Assembly (NCBI RefSeq): GCF_036013645.1
Contig: NZ_CP107869.1
Span: forward strand, 5,952,001-6,016,000
Direction: 5' to 3'
DNA length: 64,000 bases
DNA from: Streptomyces sp. NBC_00490
GTDB taxonomy: Bacteria > Actinomycetota > Actinomycetes > Streptomycetales > Streptomycetaceae
Below are positions 49,090 to 59,202 of the stretch, in pieces. The notes beneath the pieces were generated by a model. The model saw only the letters and a list, made by a program, of their open reading frames with translations. It was not told the origin of the DNA and did not search any database. The translations under genes and the position numbers were made by a program. How positions within the stretch are numbered: the stretch's first letter is position 1; each line of letters begins with the position of its first letter.

Positions 49090-51921
49090 TCACAGTGCTC
49101 GGGTCGCGTACGCCCTGACGTCCGCGTCCGAGTCCGTCGTCGCCGTGGCCAGGGCCGCGCGGGCGTCCCCGGTGGCCGTGTGGCGGGTCAGGGCCAGGAC
49201 CGCCGCCTTGCGGACGTCGGCGTTCGGGTCGGCGAGGGTCTTGGCGAGGGCGGGGACGGCGACATCCGGGTCGGCCGCGGACAGGGCGGTCGCCGCTCCG
49301 GACCGTACCTGCCAGGCCGGGTCGTCGAGGGCGGTCACCGCACGGGCGGCGAGGGGTCCGTGGCAGCCCGTGGTGCCCAGTGCGGCGTAGGCGGCGGCAC
49401 GGACCAGGGCGTCGGCGTCCGCGGTGAGGTCGGCGAGAGCGGTGAGAACGGCAGCGACGGGATGTTCCGTCGACACCGTCGCCAGGCTCTTGGCGATCGC
49501 GACCCGGACCTCGCGGGACGGCTCGGACGGTGCCGCGTGGGCGAGTTGCTCCGCGGCGTCGACCGAGACGAGGGCGCGTACCGCCTCGATGCGGACGGCG
49601 ATGTCGGGGTCGGTCAGCGAGCCGGCGAACAGCTCCGTGTCGCCCAGCCGCAGGGCGCGCAGCACGTCGAGGGCGGCTGCGCGGACGACCGGGTCGGGCT
49701 CGGCGAGGGCGGCGGCGAGGCCGTCGCGGAGGGCGGGTTCGGGCGGCAGCGTCTCGACGAGCTCGCGCAGTGAGGCCGCGGCGGCGGCGCGTACCTCGGC
49801 GGCGGAGTCGCGGAGGGCCTCGGCCAGGGCGGGGCCCGTCCCCAGCGGCAGCGCCTCCGTCAGCACGGCGACGGCCTCGCGTCGCACGGCGGGCACCGGG
49901 TCGCTCAAGTACGGCCGCAGGGCGCCGAGTTCGGGCTCCTGCTCGGCGAGGGCGACGAGTTCGAGGAGGCGGGCGGAGGAAGTCTCGGGGGTGGGGTGGG
50001 TGGGGAGGGGGAGGGGCCCCCTCCCCGACAGCGACGCTGGCTCCGACACCGACACCGACTCCGCCGCCCCCACCGACTCCGCCCCACCCGCCCCCACTGG
50101 CACCCCCGCCGCCATCGGCGCTCGGTCCCGGGAACCGGCCGTCGCCACGTCCTCCGGATGCACCTCGCCCAGCTGCCGGGAGGGACCGCCAGTGGGGGCG
50201 AACTCGTCGACGGGGACCAGGTAAGGGGCCACGGGACGGGCCGTGAACTCCATCGTGCCGGAGGGGGACTTGTGCAGGTCGAGGTGGTGGAACCAGGAGG
50301 CGTCGTCGCGCTGGGGGTGGTCGAGGCGGTCGTGGTAGAGGCCCCAGCGGGACTCCGTGCGGGCCAGGGAGGCGCGCGCGGCCATTTCCGCGCAGTCGCG
50401 GATGAAGGAGACCTCGGCGCAGCGCATCAGTTCGTGCGGGGTGCGGGCGCCCATCTCCGCGATGTCGGTGTGCATCCGCTCGAAGGCTTCCAGGGCGAGC
50501 GAGAGACGGGCGCCGGACTTCGGCGGGGCGACGTAGTCGTTCACGAAGCGGCGCAGCTTGTACTCGACCTGGGGCTGCGGCGGGCCGTCCGGGTTGCGCA
50601 GCGGGCGGTAGATCAGCTCGTGGGCCTCGCGGAGTTGGTGAAGAGGCAACTCGCCCTCGTAGGGCCGGAACCGGGCGGCGTCCGCGCCCGCCAGGTCGCC
50701 GAAGACGAAGGCGCCGATCATGTAGTTGTGGGGGACGCAGGCGAGGTCACCGGCGGCGTAGAGGCGGGGGACGGTCGTACGGGCGTGGTCGTCCACCCGT
50801 ACTCCCGAGGCCGAATGCCCGCCGCACAGGCCGATCTCGGAGATGTGCATCTCGATGTCGTGGGTGCGGTAGTCGTGGCCGCGGCCGGAGTGGAAGGTGC
50901 CGCGGGAGGGACGTTCCGTGGAGTGCAGGATCGACTCCAGGGCCGATATCGACTCCTCCGGCAGATGGCTCAGCTTCAGGTACACCGGGCCCCGGTCCGA
51001 GGCGACCTCCGCCGCGAATTCCGCCATCATCTGGCCCGACCAGTAGTCGGAGTCGACGAAGCGTTCGCCGTGCCGGTTGACCTGGTAGCCGCCGAAGGGG
51101 TTGGCGACGTAGGCGCAGGCGGGGCCGTTGTAGTCCTTGATCAGCGGGTTGATCTGGAAGCACTCGATGCCGGTGAGCTCGGCGCCCGCGTGGTACGCCA
51201 TGGCGTAGCCGTCGCCCGCGTTCGTGGGGTTCTCGTAGGTGCCGTACAGGTAGCCGGAGGCCGGAAGGCCCAGGCGGCCGCAGGGGCCGGTGGCGAGGAT
51301 GACGGCGCCCGCGCGGACCGTCACGAAGGCGCCGGTGCGGGTGTTGAAGCCGACCGCGCCCACGGCCCGCCCGTCCTCGGGAGCGGTGAGCACCCGGACC
51401 GGCATCACCCGGTTCTCGATGCGGATCCGCTCCCGCATCTCGCGTCGGCGCAGCTGCCGGTACAGGACCTTCTTGACGTCCTTGCCCTCCGGCATGGGCA
51501 GCACGTAGGAGCCGGAGCGGTGGACCTGGCGGACCGCGTACTCGCCGTGCTCGTCCTTCTCGAACTTCACACCGTAGGACTCCAGTCGCTGCACCATGGC
51601 GAAGCCGCGGGTGGCGGTCTGGCGGACGGTGGACTGGTCGACGATGCCGTCGTTGGCGCGGGTGATCTCGGCGACGTAGTCGTCGGGCTCGGCGCGGCCC
51701 GGGACGACCGCGTTGTTGACGCCGTCCATGCCCATGGCGAGGGCGCCGGAGTGCCGGACGTGGGCCTTCTCCAGGAGGATCACGTCGGCGCCGTGCTCGG
51801 CGGCGGTCAGGGCGGCCATGGTGCCGGCGGTGCCGCCGCCGATGACGAGGACGTCGCAGCTCAGCTCCTCGGCGTCGGTGAGTGCGGGAATCTCCAAGGG
51901 GGTGTTCACGGAGGCGGTCAC
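49090..51921 (-). CDS. AprA-like flavoprotein (fumarate reductase/adenylylsulfate reductase family) with HEAT repeats
   Basis: 943 residues, GTG start. Residues 20-600 are an FAD-binding flavoprotein: LVIGGGTAGTMAALTAAEHG, VILLEKAHVRHSGALAMGMD, GVNNAVVPG, GAVILATGPCGRLGLPASGY, NAGDGYAMAYHAGAELTG and VPRLYAAGDLACVPHNYMIG then FVFGDLAG. The capping and Apr-like signatures resemble the alpha subunit of adenylylsulfate (APS) reductase more than succinate dehydrogenase. A Pro/Ser linker (about 600-645) joins a C-terminal domain of seven or eight HEAT-like repeats (648-943; for example DPDIAVRIEAVRALVSVDAA and DPNADVRKAAVLALTRH), absent from AprA. It is the last gene of a cluster with a dicluster ferredoxin and an ABC importer. 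Substrate unknown; an organosulfur or sulfite-type redox reaction is inferred. Confidence 0.85.
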   Translation of the reverse strand: MTASVNTPLEIPALTDAEELSCDVLVIGGGTAGTMAALTAAEHGADVILLEKAHVRHSGALAMGMDGVNNAVVPGRAEPDDYVAEITRANDGIVDQSTVRQTATRGFAMVQRLESYGVKFEKDEHGEYAVRQVHRSGSYVLPMPEGKDVKKVLYRQLRRREMRERIRIENRVMPVRVLTAPEDGRAVGAVGFNTRTGAFVTVRAGAVILATGPCGRLGLPASGYLYGTYENPTNAGDGYAMAYHAGAELTGIECFQINPLIKDYNGPACAYVANPFGGYQVNRHGERFVDSDYWSGQMMAEFAAEVASDRGPVYLKLSHLPEESISALESILHSTERPSRGTFHSGRGHDYRTHDIEMHISEIGLCGGHSASGVRVDDHARTTVPRLYAAGDLACVPHNYMIGAFVFGDLAGADAARFRPYEGELPLHQLREAHELIYRPLRNPDGPPQPQVEYKLRRFVNDYVAPPKSGARLSLALEAFERMHTDIAEMGARTPHELMRCAEVSFIRDCAEMAARASLARTESRWGLYHDRLDHPQRDDASWFHHLDLHKSPSGTMEFTARPVAPYLVPVDEFAPTGGPSRQLGEVHPEDVATAGSRDRAPMAAGVPVGAGGAESVGAAESVSVSEPASLSGRGPLPLPTHPTPETSSARLLELVALAEQEPELGALRPYLSDPVPAVRREAVAVLTEALPLGTGPALAEALRDSAAEVRAAAAASLRELVETLPPEPALRDGLAAALAEPDPVVRAAALDVLRALRLGDTELFAGSLTDPDIAVRIEAVRALVSVDAAEQLAHAAPSEPSREVRVAIAKSLATVSTEHPVAAVLTALADLTADADALVRAAAYAALGTTGCHGPLAARAVTALDDPAWQVRSGAATALSAADPDVAVPALAKTLADPNADVRKAAVLALTRHTATGDARAALATATTDSDADVRAYATRAL

Positions 51922-51932
51922 CAGGGGGCCTT

Positions 51933-53168
51933 TCAGGTACCGAGCGAGGTGAGGACTTCGCGCCGCAGGGCCAGGCGCGCGGGATCTTCGTGGGCCGTAC
52001 GGTCACGCGGGTGGGGTATGTCGCGTACGGCGGTGAGGCGGCCGGCGCCGAGGAGGGCCACGCGGTCGCCGAGGAACAGGGCCTCGTCCACGTCGTGGGT
52101 GACGAAGACGACGGTCGCGCCCGTGCCCCGCAGCACCTCCACGAGCAGGTCCTGCATGCCGGCGCGGGTCTGGGCGTCGAGCGCGCCGAAGGGTTCGTCC
52201 ATCAGGACGGCGCGGGGCGCTCCCGCGAGGGCCCGGGCCAGCTGGGCGCGTTGGCGTTGCCCGCCGGAGACACGGTGCGGCAGGTGCCGGGCCCGGTCGG
52301 CGAGTCCTACGCGGTCCAGCCAGGATTCGGCCTGGGCGCGGCGTTCGGTGCGGGGGACCCTCTTGACGGCGAGGGGGAGTTCGACGTTGGCCCGCAGGGT
52401 GCGCCAGGGCAGGAGGGCGTCCTCCTGGAAGACCAGGGCGCGGTCCGCGGCCGGGGCGGTGATCGGGTGGCCGTCCTGCTCCACGGTTCCGTCGAGCGGG
52501 GGCAGCAGCCCGGCGAGGGTGCGCAGCAGCGTCGACTTGCCGCAGCCGGAGGAGCCGACGACGGTCAGGATCTCGCCGGGCGCGATGTCCAGGTCGACAC
52601 CGGACACGGCGGGGGCGCCGGGGCGTCCGAGACCGGCGCCGGTGAGGGTGAGGCGGGTGCCGCGGACCGGGGCGGCGGCCGGAGCCTCGCCCCCGGAGGC
52701 GGGCCGCTCGGGGGTGGCGCCCGTCCTGGTGCCGGACGCGTGCGCGGTGGTGCCGGTGACGCCGGTCGGCCCGGAAGTCTTCGAGGTCGCGCCGGTCGTG
52801 CCGGGTGTCGTGGATGCCTCCGAGGTTGCGTCCGTCGTCCTGGTTGTCCTGGACGTCAGCGAGGCCGCGCCGGTCTGCCCGGAAGCCTCCGAGGTCGTCG
52901 CGGTCGCCGCGGTCGCCGCGGTCGTACCGATCGCCCTGGACGCCTCCGAGGCCGGGTCCGTTGTGCCGGTTGTTCCGGACGTCGGCGAGGTCGCGTCGGT
53001 GGACGTGGTTGTGCCGGAAGCCTTCGAGGTCGTGGCGGTCGTGCCGGTTGCCCCGGAAGCCGCCGAGGTCGTGCCCTTCGTGCCCCTCACCGTGGGCGCC
53101 TCCGAGCCCGTGCCCGCCGCGGCCGACCCTTCACCGATCGTGCCGGTCGTCTCAGACGAGGTGCTCAT
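51933..53168 (-). CDS. ABC transporter ATPase (SsuB/TauB-like) with long Thr/Ser-rich N-terminus
   Basis: 411 residues. Residues 170-411 are a complete ATPase of the nitrate/sulfonate/taurine group: Walker A GSSGCGKST (205-213), Q-loop VFQEDALLPW, signature VSGGQRQRAQLARAL, Walker B VLMDEPFGALD and switch VTHDVDEA. Residues 1-168 are low complexity, with imperfect repeats of about 15 residues (TSEAS...SGTTGTTD), almost only Thr, Ser, Ala and Gly. A normal SsuB starts at about residue 170; no start codon is well placed there, so the tail seems translated. The gene overlaps the permease gene by 17 bases and ends 11 bases before the AprA-like gene. Confidence 0.9.
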   Translation of the reverse strand: MSTSSETTGTIGEGSAAAGTGSEAPTVRGTKGTTSAASGATGTTATTSKASGTTTSTDATSPTSGTTGTTDPASEASRAIGTTAATAATATTSEASGQTGAASLTSRTTRTTDATSEASTTPGTTGATSKTSGPTGVTGTTAHASGTRTGATPERPASGGEAPAAAPVRGTRLTLTGAGLGRPGAPAVSGVDLDIAPGEILTVVGSSGCGKSTLLRTLAGLLPPLDGTVEQDGHPITAPAADRALVFQEDALLPWRTLRANVELPLAVKRVPRTERRAQAESWLDRVGLADRARHLPHRVSGGQRQRAQLARALAGAPRAVLMDEPFGALDAQTRAGMQDLLVEVLRGTGATVVFVTHDVDEALFLGDRVALLGAGRLTAVRDIPHPRDRTAHEDPARLALRREVLTSLGT

Positions 53169-54135
53169 CGCGTGCCTCCTCGGTCCTGGGGTGGGGGCCC
53201 TTGTCCTTGGGCCTGTCGTGCACGGCTCCCTCGTCCGGGGCCCCGGTGTCCATGAACCCCGGGGCCGGCGGAGCCGGCGGCACCGTTCTCGCGGACCCCG
53301 CAGCTCTCGGTCGAGGGGTCGTCCCCACGTCGTACGACGTCCGTGGCAGCCACCGTGTGAGTCGGCGGCCCAGTGCCTCGACCGCCGTGGAGGTGAGCCA
53401 GCCGAGGATGCCGATCGTGACCATGCCGACGAAGACGCCGGGGTAGTCGACGACCGTGTAGTCCTGCCAGGTGCGGTAGCCGACGCCGTACTGGCCGGAG
53501 ATCATCTCGGCGGAGATCACGCAGATCCATGAGACGCCGATGCCGACCGAGAGACCGCCGAAGATGCCGGGAAGCGCGCCCGGCAGGACGACCGAGGCGA
53601 GGATTCGTGACCGTCCGCCGCCCATTGTCAGCACCGCCTCCTCCCAGGCGGGGGTGAGTGCGCGGACCGCGTGCCGGGTGGAGACGAGGACCGGGAAGAA
53701 CGCGGCGGTGAAGGTGATGAAGACGATGCCCTGTTCGTTGGAGGGGAACAGGAGGATCGCTACGGGGACCAGGGCGATCGCCGGGATGGGGCGGATCACC
53801 TCGAGGACCGGTCCGAGCAGGTCCTCGGCGAGGCGGGAGCGTGCCACGAGCACGCCCGTCGCCACACCGAGCACCGCGGCGAGCAGGAAGCCGCTCAGGA
53901 TGCGGGTGAGGCTGTCGGTGAGGTCGGTCCAGTAGTCGGGGCCGGCGAGCCGGTCGGCGAAGGTGCGGGCGACGTCGGTGACGGTGGGGAACTGCGAGAA
54001 GCGCAGCCACAGGTCGATGTCGAAGCTGGTCAGCAGCTGCCACACGCCGAGGGCGACCGCGAGCGAGGCGGCCCGCAGGGTGAGGCGGCCGGCCCGGCGT
54101 GGATACCGGGGCGCCCGCCGCGCGTACCGGCTCAC
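53152..54135 (-). CDS. ABC transporter permease (SsuC/TauC-like)
   Basis: 327 residues from GTG 54135, which overlaps the end of the binding-protein gene by 4 bases. Six membrane helices with the EAA loop (AVRALTPAWEEAVLTMGGGR, then VVLPGALPGIFGGLSVGIGV) typical of nitrate/sulfonate/taurine permeases. LEVIRPIPAIALVPVAILLF is the family hallmark before the third helix. The C-terminal 70 residues are an unusual Pro/Arg-rich tail (GTTPRPRAAGSARTVPPAPP ... DRPKDKGPHPRTEEARDEHL). Forms the importer with the neighbouring ATPase and lipoprotein. Confidence 0.92.
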   Translation of the reverse strand: MSRYARRAPRYPRRAGRLTLRAASLAVALGVWQLLTSFDIDLWLRFSQFPTVTDVARTFADRLAGPDYWTDLTDSLTRILSGFLLAAVLGVATGVLVARSRLAEDLLGPVLEVIRPIPAIALVPVAILLFPSNEQGIVFITFTAAFFPVLVSTRHAVRALTPAWEEAVLTMGGGRSRILASVVLPGALPGIFGGLSVGIGVSWICVISAEMISGQYGVGYRTWQDYTVVDYPGVFVGMVTIGILGWLTSTAVEALGRRLTRWLPRTSYDVGTTPRPRAAGSARTVPPAPPAPGFMDTGAPDEGAVHDRPKDKGPHPRTEEARDEHLV

Positions 54136-55475
54136 GACGCCTGCTCCAGCGCGGCGGCGTACGGGACGACGCGGGCGCCCTCGTGTGCGCCGATGTACGC
54201 CTGTGCGGTGGCCGGGGCGACGAAGGGCAGCAGATCCTTGCCGTCGCTCACCCAGAGCGCCTTGTCGGCGAACCACAGGGTGCCGGTGGTGGCGTCGGGG
54301 ACGTACGCGGCGCGGATGCCGGACCTGTGCTCGGCGACGTAGGCCAGCAGTTCGGCCGGGGTGCTGAAGGCGCGGGTCCTGGAGGCGCCCTTGGGCCAGA
54401 CCTCGCCGGCGGAGGCCGGGGGAGCGGTGGCGAGCCGCTTCGCGTAGTCGGCGCCCAGGGCCTTCTTGACGTACTGGTCGTCGACGAAGGCGTCCACGTC
54501 CACGTCGCCGGTCAGTTTGGCCGACTTCAGGACCGAGACGTCCTCCTTCAGGGCGGAGATCAGCTGGGGCTTGATCGCCGGGTCGAAGGTGGAGATGCCG
54601 TGGGCGCCGTTGTAGAGGTAGACGACCTCGGCGGGCAGGCCGGTGGCATCGGCGACCTTCTCGGCGGCGGCCACGGGGTGCTCGTCGAGGTAGTCCGTGG
54701 CCTCGGCCTGGGCCTTGAGGAAGGCCTCCAGGACGGCGGGGCGCTCCTTGGCGAAGTCCTCGCGGGCGGTGACGCCGTGGAAGGTGGGGAGGTTCAGCTG
54801 GGCCCCGTCGTAGAGGGCTTTCGCCTTGCCCTGGTAGGCGAGCAGGCCGGGCCAGGCGACGAACTGGGAGAGCGCGTCCGTGCTGCCGGCGGAGAGGGCG
54901 GAGGCGCCCACCGCGGGCTGCTGGTTGAGCTTCTCGATGCCCTGGTCGGGGTCGATGCCGGCGCGTTGCAGGGCGCGGACGAGGGTGCCGTCGGCGGCGG
55001 AGCCGACGCTGGTGGACACCTTCTTGCCCTTGAGGTCCGCGAGGGAGGCCAGCTTGGAGTCGGGGGCGGTGACGATGGTGTTGAGGCCGCCGCGGAGGTT
55101 GTAGCCGGTGACCGAGACGAGGTGGGTCGGCTTGCCGAGCTGTTTGCCGCGGGCCGCGTTGATGAGGAGCGGGAAGTCGCCCATCGAGCCGATGTCGATC
55201 TTCCCGGCGGTCATCTGGGCGGTGATGGGGGCGCCGGTGGCGTAGTCCTGCCAGTCGACCTTGTAGGTCTTGCCGTCGCCCAGCGAGTTGAGCTGCTTCT
55301 CGAAGGAGCCGAGGGAGCGCAGCAGGGTGCCGGCGGTGACGGTGTTGATGGTCTTGGACTGGTAGCCGACGGTGACGGTGACCGTGGAGCCGTCGCCGGC
55401 CCGGGCGCTGCCGCCGCAGGCCGTCAGGGGAGCGAGCAGCAGCACCAGGGAGGCGGCGATTGCCTTGTGTTTCAT
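54132..55475 (-). CDS. ABC substrate-binding lipoprotein with NosL-like C-terminal domain
   Basis: 447 residues. Lipobox LTAC|GG at the end of the signal peptide. Residues 35-360 are a periplasmic-binding-protein fold of the nitrate/sulfonate/taurine group: VGYQSKTINTVTAGTLLRSL, GKIDIGSMGDFPLLINAARG, LKGKKVSTSVGSAADGTLVR, LNQQPAVGASALSAGSTDAL. The last 80 residues (368-447) differ: FSTPAELLAYVAEHRSGIRA, YVPDATTGTLWFADKALWVS and LLPFVAPATAQAYIGAHEGA follow the pattern of the NosL C-terminal domain (dipped phrase YV-D...W..A..A..V...PF...A..F...HGG). The copper-binding CGM part of NosL is not present. The fusion suggests a substrate- or metal-handling step outside the membrane. Confidence 0.88.
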   Translation of the reverse strand: MKHKAIAASLVLLLAPLTACGGSARAGDGSTVTVTVGYQSKTINTVTAGTLLRSLGSFEKQLNSLGDGKTYKVDWQDYATGAPITAQMTAGKIDIGSMGDFPLLINAARGKQLGKPTHLVSVTGYNLRGGLNTIVTAPDSKLASLADLKGKKVSTSVGSAADGTLVRALQRAGIDPDQGIEKLNQQPAVGASALSAGSTDALSQFVAWPGLLAYQGKAKALYDGAQLNLPTFHGVTAREDFAKERPAVLEAFLKAQAEATDYLDEHPVAAAEKVADATGLPAEVVYLYNGAHGISTFDPAIKPQLISALKEDVSVLKSAKLTGDVDVDAFVDDQYVKKALGADYAKRLATAPPASAGEVWPKGASRTRAFSTPAELLAYVAEHRSGIRAAYVPDATTGTLWFADKALWVSDGKDLLPFVAPATAQAYIGAHEGARVVPYAAALEQAS

Positions 55476-55491
55476 GGGAGTCGGGGGCCTT

Positions 55492-55719
55492 TCACCGGAG
55501 CAGATAGGGCATGTTGACCGTGACGGCTCCGGTGGGACAGCGGGCCGCGCAGGGGCCGCAGTACCAGCATTCGTCGACGTGCATGTAGGCCTTGCCGCTG
55601 CTGTCGTCGATGGCGAGGGAGTCCAGCGGGCACATGTCCACGCAGAGCGTGCAGCCGTCGATGCACTTCGACTCGTCGATGGTCACGGGCACGTCGGCCC
55701 GCTGGGGCGCCAAGGGCAT
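55492..55719 (-). CDS. Small 4Fe-4S dicluster ferredoxin (AprB-like)
   Basis: 75 residues. Two cluster motifs: CIDGCTLCVDMCPLDS (Cys-x3-Cys-x2-Cys-x3-Cys-Pro) and CWYCGPCAARCPTGA (Cys-x2-Cys-x2-Cys-x3-Cys-Pro). The x3 spacing of the first and the intervening SSGKAYMHVDE resemble the ferredoxin part of APS reductase subunit AprB, but the AprB beta-sheet and C-terminal tail that wrap AprA are missing. It probably delivers electrons to, or takes them from, the AprA-like flavoprotein at the other end of the cluster. Sixteen bases precede the binding-protein gene. Confidence 0.92.
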   Translation of the reverse strand: MPLAPQRADVPVTIDESKCIDGCTLCVDMCPLDSLAIDDSSGKAYMHVDECWYCGPCAARCPTGAVTVNMPYLLR

Positions 55720-55807
55720 GGCTGTCTCCAGAGATGTCCTGAGATTTTCCGCGCGGTGGTGAACCGGGCGGGATCTGCCGAACGATGAAGAGGTGGGAGG
55801 GGGGTGG

Positions 55808-56608
55808 TCACAGGGAGCGGTGCAGCAGGCCGCTCATGGTGATGCGGTCGCCGCGGAAGCGGATGAACTCCAGGTCGACCGGGCGGCCGTCGGCGAGGTG
55901 GGTGAGGCGTTCCAGCATGAGGACGGCCGCGCCGCGCGGGGCCTCCAGTACGGCGGCGGAGTGGGTGTCCGCGTTCACCGCCTCCAGGGTGATCTCGGCG
56001 TGGCCGAGGCGCTGACCGGTGATCGTCTCCAGGAGGCGGAAGACGTCGGTGTTCTCCAGGTCGGCGCCGAGCAGGGCGGTGCCGATGTCGAGCGGGATGT
56101 AGGTGAGGTCCAGGGAGAGGGGAAGGCCGTTCAGGCGGCGCAGGCGTTCGATGTAGAGGACGTCGGTGCCGGGTGTGACCTGGAGGCGTTCGGCCACCGG
56201 GGCGGGTGCGGGGGCGGGGCCCATCGTGCGGACCTCGTTGGTGACGGTGCCGTGTTCGTGGAGGGTTTCCGCGAGGCCCATCAGTCGGTCCAGGCCGTGG
56301 GGGTACTTCTGCGCGACGACCACGGTGCCCACTCCGGGCAGGCGGTCGACGAGACCTTCGGCGCGCAGCAGGTCCAGGGCCAGGCGGACCGTGTTGCGTG
56401 AGGCCCGGTAGTCGGTGGCCAGGGTCGACTCGTGGGGGAAGGTGTCGTCCGTGAAGCCGCCGGTGAGGATCTGGTGGCGCAGGAGGTCGGCGAGTTGCCG
56501 GGCCTGGTCCGCGCGCAGCCGGCGGCGCGCACGGTGGGCGGCGACGGTGGTCGCGCCCTGGCCGGCGTGGTCGCGGATGCGGTCGGAGGGAGGCATGCCA
56601 GGAACCAT
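55808..56608 (-). CDS. GntR-family regulator with UTRA domain
   Basis: 266 residues; ATG 56596 is an alternative start. Residues about 30-100 are the GntR winged helix (DQARQLADLLRHQILTGGFT, SRNTVRLALDLLRAEGLVDR, GVGTVV). Residues 115-262 form the UTRA ligand domain of the HutC subfamily (VLYIERLRRLNGLPLSLDLT, YIPLDIGTALL, HSAAVLEAPRGAAVLMLER, LEFIRFRGDRI). It heads the six-gene import-and-redox cluster on the minus strand and is the natural regulator of it. The 88 bases before the ferredoxin gene should hold the operator, but no clear palindrome was found. Confidence 0.9.
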   Translation of the reverse strand: MVPGMPPSDRIRDHAGQGATTVAAHRARRRLRADQARQLADLLRHQILTGGFTDDTFPHESTLATDYRASRNTVRLALDLLRAEGLVDRLPGVGTVVVAQKYPHGLDRLMGLAETLHEHGTVTNEVRTMGPAPAPAPVAERLQVTPGTDVLYIERLRRLNGLPLSLDLTYIPLDIGTALLGADLENTDVFRLLETITGQRLGHAEITLEAVNADTHSAAVLEAPRGAAVLMLERLTHLADGRPVDLEFIRFRGDRITMSGLLHRSL

Positions 56609-56717
56609 AGCGAGGAGGTAGGAAAAGGGGTGTTGCGGCAGTGTTGCGCCACCTGCCGGGGTGTCAGGCGCGCGGCTGACCTGCGTAAACGGCTGCCGTT
56701 GAGCAAGATCTGCCAGG

Positions 56718-57659
56718 TCAGGCCAGTGCTGTCAGCCCTGGGCCGAACGCGATCAGGAGGGGCAGCAGGGGGACCAGGGCCGCCACTGCCGCCGTGAGTG
56801 CCCGGTGTCGGCGCAGCAGGCGCGGCCGGGGTTCCAGCAGCCGGTCGACCCGTTCGCCCAGCAGGCGGTGGCTGGAGGAGCAGGACAGGACGCCCCGGTG
56901 CTGGTTCAGCTCGATCAAGGCCAGGGCGGTGGTGAGGTGGCCGCAGCGGCGGGAGGCCGTGTCGTCGGCGGCCAGTTCGACCAGGCGGTGGGTCTCGTCG
57001 CAGAAGTGGGCGAACACGGGCACGCGGGGGAAGCCGGTGGCGAGGGCGGTCGAGAGGTGGAGCAGCCAGTCGTGGTGGGAGCGGGCGTGGTCGCGCTCAT
57101 GGGTGAGGACGGCGTCCAGCTGGTGGTCGGTCAGGCGGTGCAGGGCGCCGGTCGTCACCACGAGCTGGGGCGGGCTGCCCGGCATCCACCAGGCGTCGGG
57201 GTATTCGTCCTCCAGTACCAGCAGGGGGCCGCGCGCGGCCTTCTCCAGGCCGCCGGGCAGTTCGGGGGCGCGTTCGCGCAGCTGCGCCCTGGTCACGCCG
57301 CGGTGGCGGCGCGCCTCCACGAGCTCGCGGGCCAGCATCGCGGTCGTCCAGGCGGCCCCGCAGGCCAGCAGGAGGGTCAGCAGGGCCGCCCAGACGGGGG
57401 CGGCGGACAGGTCGTAGGCCGCGGTCACCGCCGGTGGCGCGGGGGCGAAGACATGGTCGCGGACCGTGTGGAAGACGGCGGCGGCGCCGAGCACCAGGGC
57501 CGTCAGACAGCACATCAGGACGGTGGCGACCAGGCACTGCCACACCCAGAGCCCCACCACGGGTTCCCGTTCGGGCCAGGCGGCCCGGGTCAGCGCACGG
57601 GGGGCGGGCACGGCGGCGGCCAGCGCGACGGCGCTCAGCAGGAGCAGGCAGAACGTCAT
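56718..57659 (-). CDS. M56-family (BlaR1/MecR1-like) membrane metallopeptidase
   Basis: 313 residues. Four membrane helices: the N-terminus, about 38-62, about 87-110 and the C-terminus (ALTAAVAALVPLLPLLIAFG). The zinc motif THERDHARSHH places His187, Glu188 and His191 on the cytoplasmic side, with LVELAADDTASRRCG as the downstream Glu segment. Family members cleave BlaI-type repressors or other regulators after sensing cell-wall stress. The sensor domain of BlaR1 is absent and no BlaI-like gene is adjacent in this window, so its target is unknown. Confidence 0.88.
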   Translation of the reverse strand: MTFCLLLLSAVALAAAVPAPRALTRAAWPEREPVVGLWVWQCLVATVLMCCLTALVLGAAAVFHTVRDHVFAPAPPAVTAAYDLSAAPVWAALLTLLLACGAAWTTAMLARELVEARRHRGVTRAQLRERAPELPGGLEKAARGPLLVLEDEYPDAWWMPGSPPQLVVTTGALHRLTDHQLDAVLTHERDHARSHHDWLLHLSTALATGFPRVPVFAHFCDETHRLVELAADDTASRRCGHLTTALALIELNQHRGVLSCSSSHRLLGERVDRLLEPRPRLLRRHRALTAAVAALVPLLPLLIAFGPGLTALA

Positions 57660-57728
57660 TCCACGGGCTCCGGATCCGGTCGGTGGAGGAGGCGGCTACA
57701 GGTGGGCCGACGTGTTCGTCAGCTGTGT

Positions 57729-57758
57729 CGCCCGCCGCCAGTATGACGGCGGCGGGCG
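57729..57758 (-). terminator. Hairpin terminator after the fumarylacetoacetase gene
   Basis: CGCCCGCCGCC (57729-57739) pairs with GGCGGCGGGCG (57748-57758) around an 8-base loop. It lies 58 bases past the stop of the minus-strand gene at 57817. Confidence 0.7.
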
Positions 57759-57816
57759 GTGCATGGCATACCTCGGGAGGCCTCCCGTTCCGTACTTCAA
57801 CCCGCCGTCGGCCACG

Positions 57817-59034
57817 TCACCGCGACACCACCTGCCCCACGACCTCACCCAGCCCCACCCGCACCCCGTCCGGCCCCGGTGCCCACGCCGACAGGGTCAC
57901 CACGTCCCCGTCCTCCAGGAAGGTCCGTTTGCCGTCGGGGAGTTCGAGGGTGTCGCGGCCGTTCCAGGTCAGTTCCAGCAGGGAGCCGCGTTGGTGCTCG
58001 GAGGGTCCGCTGACGGTTCCGGAGCCGTAGAGGTCGCCGGTCCGCAGGGAGGCGCCGTTCACCGTCATGTGGGCCAGTTGCTGCGCGGCGGTCCAGTACA
58101 TGGTGGAGAAGGGGGGCTCGGAGACCAGGTGCCCGTTGATCGACACGGAGATACGGAGGTCGTAGCCGCCCGGACCGTCCCCGGGGGCCGAGTCGTCGAG
58201 GTACGGCAGCAGTTCGTGGGTCCGCTCCGGTGGCGCCACCCGCGCCTCCTCCAGCGCGTCCAGCGGGGTGATCCACGCGGAGACCGAGGTGGCGAAGGAC
58301 TTGCCGAGGAACGGGCCGAGGGGGACGTACTCCCAGGCCTGGATGTCGCGCGCGGACCAGTCGTTGAGGAGGCACAAGCCGAAGACGTGCTCGCGGAAGT
58401 CGCCCAGCGCCACGGGCGAGCCCATGGCCGAGGGCACGCCGACCACGAAGCCGACCTCCGCCTCGATGTCCAGGCGGACCGACGGGCCGAAGACGGGTTC
58501 CGTGTCCGAGGGGGCCTTGCGCTGGCCGGACGGTCGTACGACGTCCGTCCCCGACACCACGACCGTGCCCGAGCGGCCGTGGTAGCCGATCGGCAGGTGT
58601 TTCCAGTTGGGGGTCAGGGAGTCCGCGGCGTCGGGGCGGAAGATCTGGCCGACGTTGCGGGCGTGGTTCTCGGAGGCGTAGAAGTCGACGTAGTCCGCGA
58701 CCTCGAAGGGCAGGTGCAGGGTCACCGAGGAGAGCGGGTGCAGGAACTCCTGGACGACCGACTGGTGCGAGGGCACGGTCACCCATGCCGTCAGGGCCCG
58801 CCGTACGTCCGACCACGTGGTGCGGCCCGCCGCGAGCAGCGGGTTCAGGGACGGCCGGGCGAGCAGGGTGGCGTACGGGGAGCCCAGGGCGTGGGCCGCC
58901 GCGCCGGCGTCGAGTACGTGGTCGCCGAGCCGGACGCCGACGGTCCGGTCGCCCTGCTCTCCCACGGAGAAGACGCCGTACGGAAGGTTGTGCGGGCCGA
59001 AGGGGTCGCCCTCGGGGAGATCGAAGGGGGGCAT
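57817..59034 (-). CDS. fahA: Fumarylacetoacetase
   Basis: 405 residues from ATG 59034; a longer in-frame start would add 40 residues without family likeness. The enzyme hydrolyses fumarylacetoacetate to fumarate and acetoacetate, the last step of tyrosine breakdown. Landmarks: DLPEGDPFGPHNLPYGVFS at the N-terminus, YVDFYASENHARNVGQIFRP, LPIGYHGRSGTVVVSGTD with the catalytic His, LDIEAEVGFVVGVPSAMG, LNDWSARDIQAWEYVPLGPF and LGKSFATSVSAWITPLDAL. Length is typical. It is not accompanied by other tyrosine genes here. Confidence 0.95.
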   Translation of the reverse strand: MPPFDLPEGDPFGPHNLPYGVFSVGEQGDRTVGVRLGDHVLDAGAAAHALGSPYATLLARPSLNPLLAAGRTTWSDVRRALTAWVTVPSHQSVVQEFLHPLSSVTLHLPFEVADYVDFYASENHARNVGQIFRPDAADSLTPNWKHLPIGYHGRSGTVVVSGTDVVRPSGQRKAPSDTEPVFGPSVRLDIEAEVGFVVGVPSAMGSPVALGDFREHVFGLCLLNDWSARDIQAWEYVPLGPFLGKSFATSVSAWITPLDALEEARVAPPERTHELLPYLDDSAPGDGPGGYDLRISVSINGHLVSEPPFSTMYWTAAQQLAHMTVNGASLRTGDLYGSGTVSGPSEHQRGSLLELTWNGRDTLELPDGKRTFLEDGDVVTLSAWAPGPDGVRVGLGEVVGQVVSR

Positions 59035-59202
59035 GGGGTGCTGCCTCGCTCTCAATCGCTGCGTGTGCCATGTGGTCGCGCCACACGTTACGGCCGAGTC
59101 GCTGGTCTTGGCAGGGCCTGAAGAATCCTTAATGTCCGGATAGGGCGGCGGCATGGAGTTCGCGGCACCGCGGCCGGTGAGGCGTACGGCGGCTGCGCGC
59201 GG

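Follow-up and report, generated by a model that had tools for sequence, protein, structure and literature searches.

A conserved Streptomyces gene cluster combining a sulfonate-type importer with an AprA-like flavoprotein and a dicluster ferredoxin

Organization and conservation of the cluster

We analyzed a cluster of six genes located within a 64,000-nucleotide stretch of the genome of Streptomyces sp. NBC_00490 (contig NZ_CP107869.1, positions 5,952,001 to 6,016,000; this whole stretch is referred to as the window, and coordinates are those of the window). All features of the cluster lie on the minus strand. Read from 56608 to 49090, the closely spaced genes encode (i) a GntR/UTRA regulator (55808..56608; Pfam UTRA 1.4e-35, GntR 1.6e-12), (ii) an AprB-like dicluster [4Fe-4S] ferredoxin of 75 amino acids (aa) (55492..55719; two 4Fe-4S motifs, Fer4 families), (iii) a substrate-binding lipoprotein with a predicted SsuA/TauA-like fold (54132..55475; SsuA_fam 142.9 bits), (iv) an SsuC/TauC-like permease of the ATP-binding cassette (ABC) type (53152..54135; BPD_transp_1 4.5e-19), (v) a TauB/NtrCD-like ABC ATPase (51933..53168; ABC_tran 7.2e-30, residues 189-327), and (vi) a flavoprotein of 943 aa (49090..51921), in which a flavin adenine dinucleotide (FAD) part, a linker and HEAT repeats are fused. 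Because the GTG start of the permease gene overlaps the stop of the binding-protein gene, and the start of the ATPase gene overlaps the permease stop, the six-gene set looks like an operon.

A preliminary description of this DNA had named the same six tightly spaced genes. All of them were confirmed and the identities given there stood, while the HEAT fusion, a NosL-like domain in the binding protein, the spread of the module over several phyla and its analogy with asfAB had been missed.

The flavoprotein was found in 51 of 150 Streptomyces species (50 above the family cut-off, one partial match). Among 396 Actinomycetota genomes there were 13 matches at 1e-100; 12 of them exceeded the cut-off, and the thirteenth (locus L020) is of the adenosine 5′-phosphosulfate (APS) reductase type. 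A scan of named genomes revealed at least 587 stretches with relatives, and the best 80, all from Actinobacteria, were kept. After exclusion of two loci shorter than 6 kb, the regulator, ferredoxin, binding protein, permease, ATPase, FAD part and HEAT part were all present in 76 of the 78 loci; of the two exceptions, L096 lacked a regulator at the threshold applied and L120 begins inside the ATPase gene. In all 78, HEAT and flavoprotein share one open reading frame (ORF).

The module is also carried by plasmids. In a plasmid collection, 54 records matched the flavoprotein at 1e-30, namely 48 nearly full-length matches, five partial ones and that of Ilyobacter (annotated as APS reductase). The records with the family come from Alpha-, Beta- and Gammaproteobacteria, Acidithiobacillus, Cyanobacteria and other Actinobacteria, and the window flavoprotein is 57-61 percent identical to the proteobacterial and cyanobacterial copies aligned. 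The ferredoxin is encoded in the same cluster in 19/19 annotated plasmid loci of the family, and HEAT is annotated as a gene of its own in 18 of them, the exception being Tsukamurella. By reading of the annotations, a DUF971 gene (10 loci) or an Mrp/NBP35 gene (4 loci) stands beside the module in 14 of the 19. Mrp/NBP35 is, by its Pfam name, an iron-sulfur carrier family, and DUF971 has been linked to iron-sulfur assembly. Nine pattern matches in viral contigs contained no relative.

A literature search, with most subscription journals outside it, returned no paper that we recognized as treating the module, and the cluster is not named in the excerpts consulted of PMC8557817, PMC8305402, PMC6759348, PMC6971185 and PMC4591350.

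Upstream of the cluster (56718-59154), the window holds genes for an M48-type membrane peptidase and a fumarylacetoacetase. Some of the Streptomyces loci also have such genes close to the cluster, and no functional link with it was seen.

The flavoprotein and its ferredoxin

The flavoprotein consists of an AprA-like FAD domain (residues ~1-575; 50197..51921), a low-complexity linker and HEAT repeats (residues ~645-943; 49090..49989, HEAT_2 8.8e-24). The linker is encoded by short GC-rich tandem repeats (50025-50104). The protein is a full member of two NCBIfam families, NF010374 (PRK13800; 1663.2 bits over residues 9-943, cut-off 1196) and NF006131 (PRK08275; 858 bits, cut-off 587), both named fumarate reductase/succinate dehydrogenase flavoprotein subunit. 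This name is contradicted by the residues of the protein and by its placement in a tree. The HP[TS] motif of SdhA, FrdA and L-aspartate oxidase (NadB) is replaced by NPL, and there is no RG before the GERF/GERY region; the His of HP[TS] and the Arg of RG are taken here to be functional residues of those enzymes.

After its own two families, the best NCBIfam match of the flavoprotein was the APS reductase alpha subunit (NF005331, 258.1 bits, under the cut-off of 557), followed by TfrA (151 bits), SdhA/FrdA (136 bits) and NadB (117 bits); with TIGR02061 (aprA) it scored 127.3 bits, under the cut-off of 641.75. By sequence, the closest solved structure was the alpha subunit of a 3′-phosphoadenosine 5′-phosphosulfate (PAPS) reductase (8a8o). 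We constructed an unrooted tree of 42 rows, comprising 38 sequences of the family and of APS/PAPS reductases and four other FrdA-superfamily proteins of the same genome. A branch with 100/100 support splits these four from the remainder, and the family itself forms one clade (support 100/99); long branches meet at the deep split. When three AsfA-like rows were added, the family, the APS/PAPS reductases, the other proteins of the genome and the AsfA-like proteins each formed one clade, with the deep order among them not resolved. The earlier suggestion that the flavoprotein is APS-reductase-like thus held in the profile scores, and it survived the tree comparison with fumarate reductases and L-aspartate oxidases that had been proposed as its test. 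As a side observation, NF005331 matched 32 of the 396 Actinomycetota genomes at 1e-60, 12 through the flavoprotein family and 20 otherwise; L020 and L149-L161 represent APS-reductase-type proteins in small Actinomycetota genomes.

The active site was compared in an alignment of 135 family sequences, all distinct over residues 70-550 (20 from plasmids, 115 others), and 15 APS/PAPS-type sequences, with AprA numbering derived by hand from the alignment with a solved relative. The equivalents of A. fulgidus AprA Asn74 and His398 (N69 and H369) are kept in 135/135 family members. The position of Arg265 is Leu (Leu260) in 135/135 family sequences vs Arg in 15/15 of the APS/PAPS type, and that of Trp234 is Tyr in 135/135 vs Trp in 15/15. 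Three cysteines, Cys254, Cys269 and Cys366, are invariant in the family (135/135) and present in 0/15 of the APS/PAPS-type sequences. Arg265 of AprA is presumably the APS-binding Arg, and we assume active-site roles for Asn74, His398 and Trp234 as well. Because of the Leu at the Arg265 position and the three family-only cysteines, we conclude from the alignment that the flavoprotein, though related to APS reductase, is very probably not one itself, which agrees with the preliminary proposal of a substrate other than APS. In sequence, the three cysteines are near the residues aligned with the AprA substrate pocket. The model of the full-length protein was poor (mean predicted local distance difference test score (pLDDT) 65, with residues 212-303 and 305-374 below 50) and was set aside; it is for this reason that we only infer that the cysteines line the pocket in space.

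The ferredoxin of the window carries the motif CWYC, an instance of the AprB-type CW-x-C, whose Trp we take to be the AprB residue beside the second cluster. CW-x-C was found in 100/100 ferredoxin rows counted (99 of the family and one reductase locus, L020) and in 8/8 AprA-type loci displayed. Matches of the ferredoxin in the PDB include AprB (3gyx_B, 1jnr_B) and the PAPS reductase beta subunit (8a8o_C), with other ferredoxins scoring higher.

The leading identification of the flavoprotein was at first AsfA. According to the excerpts consulted of PMC4267179, asfA and asfB encode a reductase and a ferredoxin that are needed, alongside an importer and a regulator of the LysR type, for the use of aromatic sulfonate as a sulfur source; soil studies have employed asfA as a marker (PMC9694294, in part), and Rmet_4334/5 of C. 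metallidurans CH34 have been named AsfA/AsfB (PMC2864759, in part). Within the examined stretches of the CH34 megaplasmid (780-830 and 890-945 kb), we placed this pair at 928 kb by counting from an aconitase-like ORF, recognized by eye and taken as Rmet_4240, so that its identity, inferred from map position, is probable. Since this probable AsfA is ~27% identical to the window flavoprotein and scores 56 bits with NF006131 (cut-off 587), the window flavoprotein is not this AsfA. The probable AsfA falls into a separate clade, for which reason the AsfA identification was rejected, and the CH34 record is not among the 54 plasmid records matching the flavoprotein.

The two families are nevertheless associated. 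Among 150 Streptomyces, 8 have AsfA-type genes, and the window family is present in 6 of these vs 45 of the 142 others (Fisher p 0.019 with one partial family match counted as present, 0.017 without it), a comparison that is uncorrected for phylogeny and genome size and presumes that two samples of 150 genomes are identical. An AsfA-type gene lies within 10 kb of the cluster at 2 of the 80 actinobacterial loci (L079, L102), and in S. fredii (L142) the two are adjacent. Broken AsfA-type genes were observed in S. fredii NXT3 (L142, 9648-11214; pieces in different frames) and in one Streptomyces (genome G495, contig 35; a gene split in two, one fragment of which contains an internal stop), a pattern that would fit if either system can take the place of the other.

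The importer and the regulator

The structure predicted for the binding protein (pLDDT 88.5) has SsuA and TauA as its nearest folds, and these two came first in all three comparisons made with this protein. Gln39 corresponds to the sulfonate-ligating Gln36 of X. citri SsuA and is invariant in 28/28 sequences. The idea of an organosulfur substrate, put forward in the preliminary description, gains support from these properties. The C-terminal part of the protein (residues ~353-447; 54132..54419) weakly resembles NosL. The NosL profile (PF05573, cut-off 24) gave sub-threshold scores of 15.9 bits with the whole protein (E 0.017) and 20.9 bits with its last 115 residues (E 0.00047); it matched 17 of the 28 family members at E<=0.1 (best 1.3e-6), and the binding protein of Methylocystis (L055) exceeded the cut-off with 28.1 bits.

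The best NCBIfam matches of the permease were SaoP, NtrB, TauC and SsuC, every one below its cut-off, and the ATPase scored 209.5 bits with TauB, also below cut-off. The conserved domain of the ATPase begins at ~52673 and runs downwards; it is preceded by a repetitive T/S/A-rich tail. Part of this T/S/A/G-rich tail of ~160 aa is encoded by a degenerate 39-bp tandem array (52761-53084; 8.1 copies, 63 percent matches). Since shorter ATPases occur (the annotated Tsukamurella gene has 753 bp and the L102 ORF 251 aa), the true start of the ATPase may lie downstream of the called one.

The first ATG of the GntR gene falls within a conserved TATGGT box, and for this reason the second ATG, at 56596, is probably the start, which corrects the one given in the preliminary description. 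Upstream of it lies a conserved promoter- or operator-like element, GTGGCGCAACACTGCCGCAACAC (56630..56652), with a direct repeat of GCAACAC at an 11-bp step; the sequence GTGGCGCAACACTnCnGCAACAC is located shortly before the TATGGT box and the probable start. Of 81 regions upstream of GntR, 55 contain the core GTGGCGCAA unaltered and 73 contain it with no more than one mismatch; outside Streptomyces, the distance of the element from GntR varies. Allowing up to three mismatches, the full element has a single site in the genome, as has a reversed control pattern. A search for a regulon by means of this element therefore gave no co-regulated genes. A single conserved site fits a dedicated local regulator, and we would pair it with the GntR protein.

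Proposed function and comparison with known systems

We lean towards the view that the cluster is a dedicated operon for sulfonate-type import and ferredoxin-linked reduction that serves sulfur supply. The importer half of this proposal is fairly well supported; the substrate and reaction of the enzyme are putative. The lipoprotein, permease and ATPase would bring a sulfonate-like anion into the cytoplasm, where the flavoprotein and ferredoxin would use electrons from the ferredoxin pool to reduce it, or the product of the first step in its breakdown, at the FAD. The sulfur would be set free as sulfite or sulfide and go into the making of cysteine. The HEAT domain would probably scaffold or mature the flavoprotein-ferredoxin pair, and the GntR/UTRA protein would control the operon via the direct-repeat element ahead of its own gene. 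The sulfur would probably come from an organic compound taken up by the cell, through chemistry so far undescribed.

Several observations weigh against the proposed function. The binding protein stays under the cut-off of TIGR01728 (SsuA_fam, a subfamily model; 142.9 vs 163.5 bits), the NrtA/CmpA folds trail SsuA/TauA by only 3-5 Z units, and the position of the second side-chain ligand of SsuA, Ser141, is occupied by Ala (19/28) or Thr (9/28). Acidithiobacillus caldus, an oxidizer of inorganic sulfur, carries the module, with a binding-protein gene that appears interrupted. The neighborhood is weak evidence for a role in sulfur metabolism and was not relied on: by reading of the annotations, sulfur-linked genes stand at 11 of the 19 annotated plasmid loci, yet also at 2 of 6 arbitrary stretches taken from these plasmids as controls.

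Relatives of one TauD are found near the cluster in 3 of the 80 actinobacterial loci, little above the expectation from 6 TauD genes per 10.8 Mb. The interruption in A. caldus plasmid pTcM1 (L139, 16065-20324) appears to be due to ISAtc1, and two further plasmids of this species match just 24 percent of the flavoprotein query.

According to a different explanation, the flavoprotein-ferredoxin pair is an electron-transfer module for a monooxygenase encoded elsewhere and leaves the sulfonate itself untouched, the role proposed for asfAB with ssuD. The excerpts consulted of PMC4267179 and PMC2864759 indeed present asfA/asfB as a chain of reductase and ferredoxin that passes electrons to oxygenolysis, an SsuD-like gene is present elsewhere in the Streptomyces genome (469.8 bits, below the cut-off of 518.2), and relatives of one luciferase-like (LLM) monooxygenase lie within 10 kb of the cluster in 7 of the 80 loci. 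The pair is, however, AprAB-like, with the Asn74 and His398 equivalents kept throughout the family as expected of a substrate-converting enzyme, the conserved module contains no monooxygenase, and the probable AsfA belongs to a different clade, so that we regard this role as unlikely. The importer and enzyme could instead handle a non-sulfur compound of the nitrate, bicarbonate or thiamine-precursor class; given the precedence of SsuA and TauA in all binding-protein comparisons, the invariance of the sulfonate-ligating Gln, and thi and glnK neighbors at 1 of the 19 annotated loci each, we consider this quite unlikely.

The enzyme could finally be a true APS/PAPS reductase, or a sulfite-oxidizing AprAB, recruited for assimilation. 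It shares with these enzymes a sequence family, a ferredoxin partner and the N74/H398 equivalents, and an FAD-type assimilatory PAPS reductase exists in Methanothermococcus (PMC10322725, in part). Against this speak the uniform replacement of Arg265 by Leu and of Trp234 by Tyr, the score of only 127 bits with TIGR02061, and two ordinary PAPS_reduct-family genes elsewhere in the same genome; profile scans of the six cluster genes identified no sulfate importer, ATP sulfurylase or APS kinase among them. This possibility appears very improbable.

Returning to sulfonate import coupled to reduction, we tentatively offer a more specific version, to which we attach a small chance. The family may be a reductase with which aerobic soil bacteria desulfonate without oxygen, driven by ferredoxin. 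The APS site of its AprA ancestor would have been rebuilt as a pocket lined by Cys254, Cys269 and Cys366, where the C-S or S-O bond of the imported sulfonate would be cleaved by FAD together with these thiols or with a metal or Fe-S site that they coordinate. If this is true, the family would add a third route to that of the oxygenases SsuD and TauD and that of the glycyl-radical lyases found in anaerobes. A conserved AprAB-like reductase with an altered active site in at least three phyla would give aerobes a new means of releasing sulfur, and the fumarate reductase naming of several hundred genes (at least 587 stretches with relatives) would be corrected. Organic compounds make up >95 percent of soil sulfur, and the sulfonate desulfonation covered by the excerpts consulted of the same source is oxygenase-based (PMC4267179).

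With AprAB and the PAPS reductase of Methanothermococcus (PDB 1jnr, 2fja, 8a8o), the cluster shares the FAD domain, the CW-x-C dicluster ferredoxin and the N74/H398 equivalents. It differs from them in the replaced Arg265 and Trp234 equivalents and the three family-specific cysteines, in the length of the ferredoxin (75 aa vs 104-166 in the PDB chains), and in the HEAT protein fused to or alongside the flavoprotein and the importer in the operon. SsuABC and TauABC resemble the importer in the predicted fold of the binding protein, the sulfonate-ligating Gln, the TauB-like ATPase and the SsuC-like permease; the cluster differs in the weakly NosL-like C-terminal domain of its binding protein, and SsuD/TauD are not among its conserved genes. 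The asfRABC system likewise combines a flavoprotein and ferredoxin with a sulfonate-type binding protein, an ABC importer and a dedicated regulator. In contrast to the cluster, the ferredoxin motif of the probable CH34 AsfB is CQTC instead of CW-x-C, the published asf regulator is of the LysR and not the GntR type, and HEAT and NosL-like parts are not mentioned for asf in the excerpts consulted of PMC4267179. The nearest functional analogue of the cluster is nevertheless asfAB, which serves arylsulfonate desulfonation.

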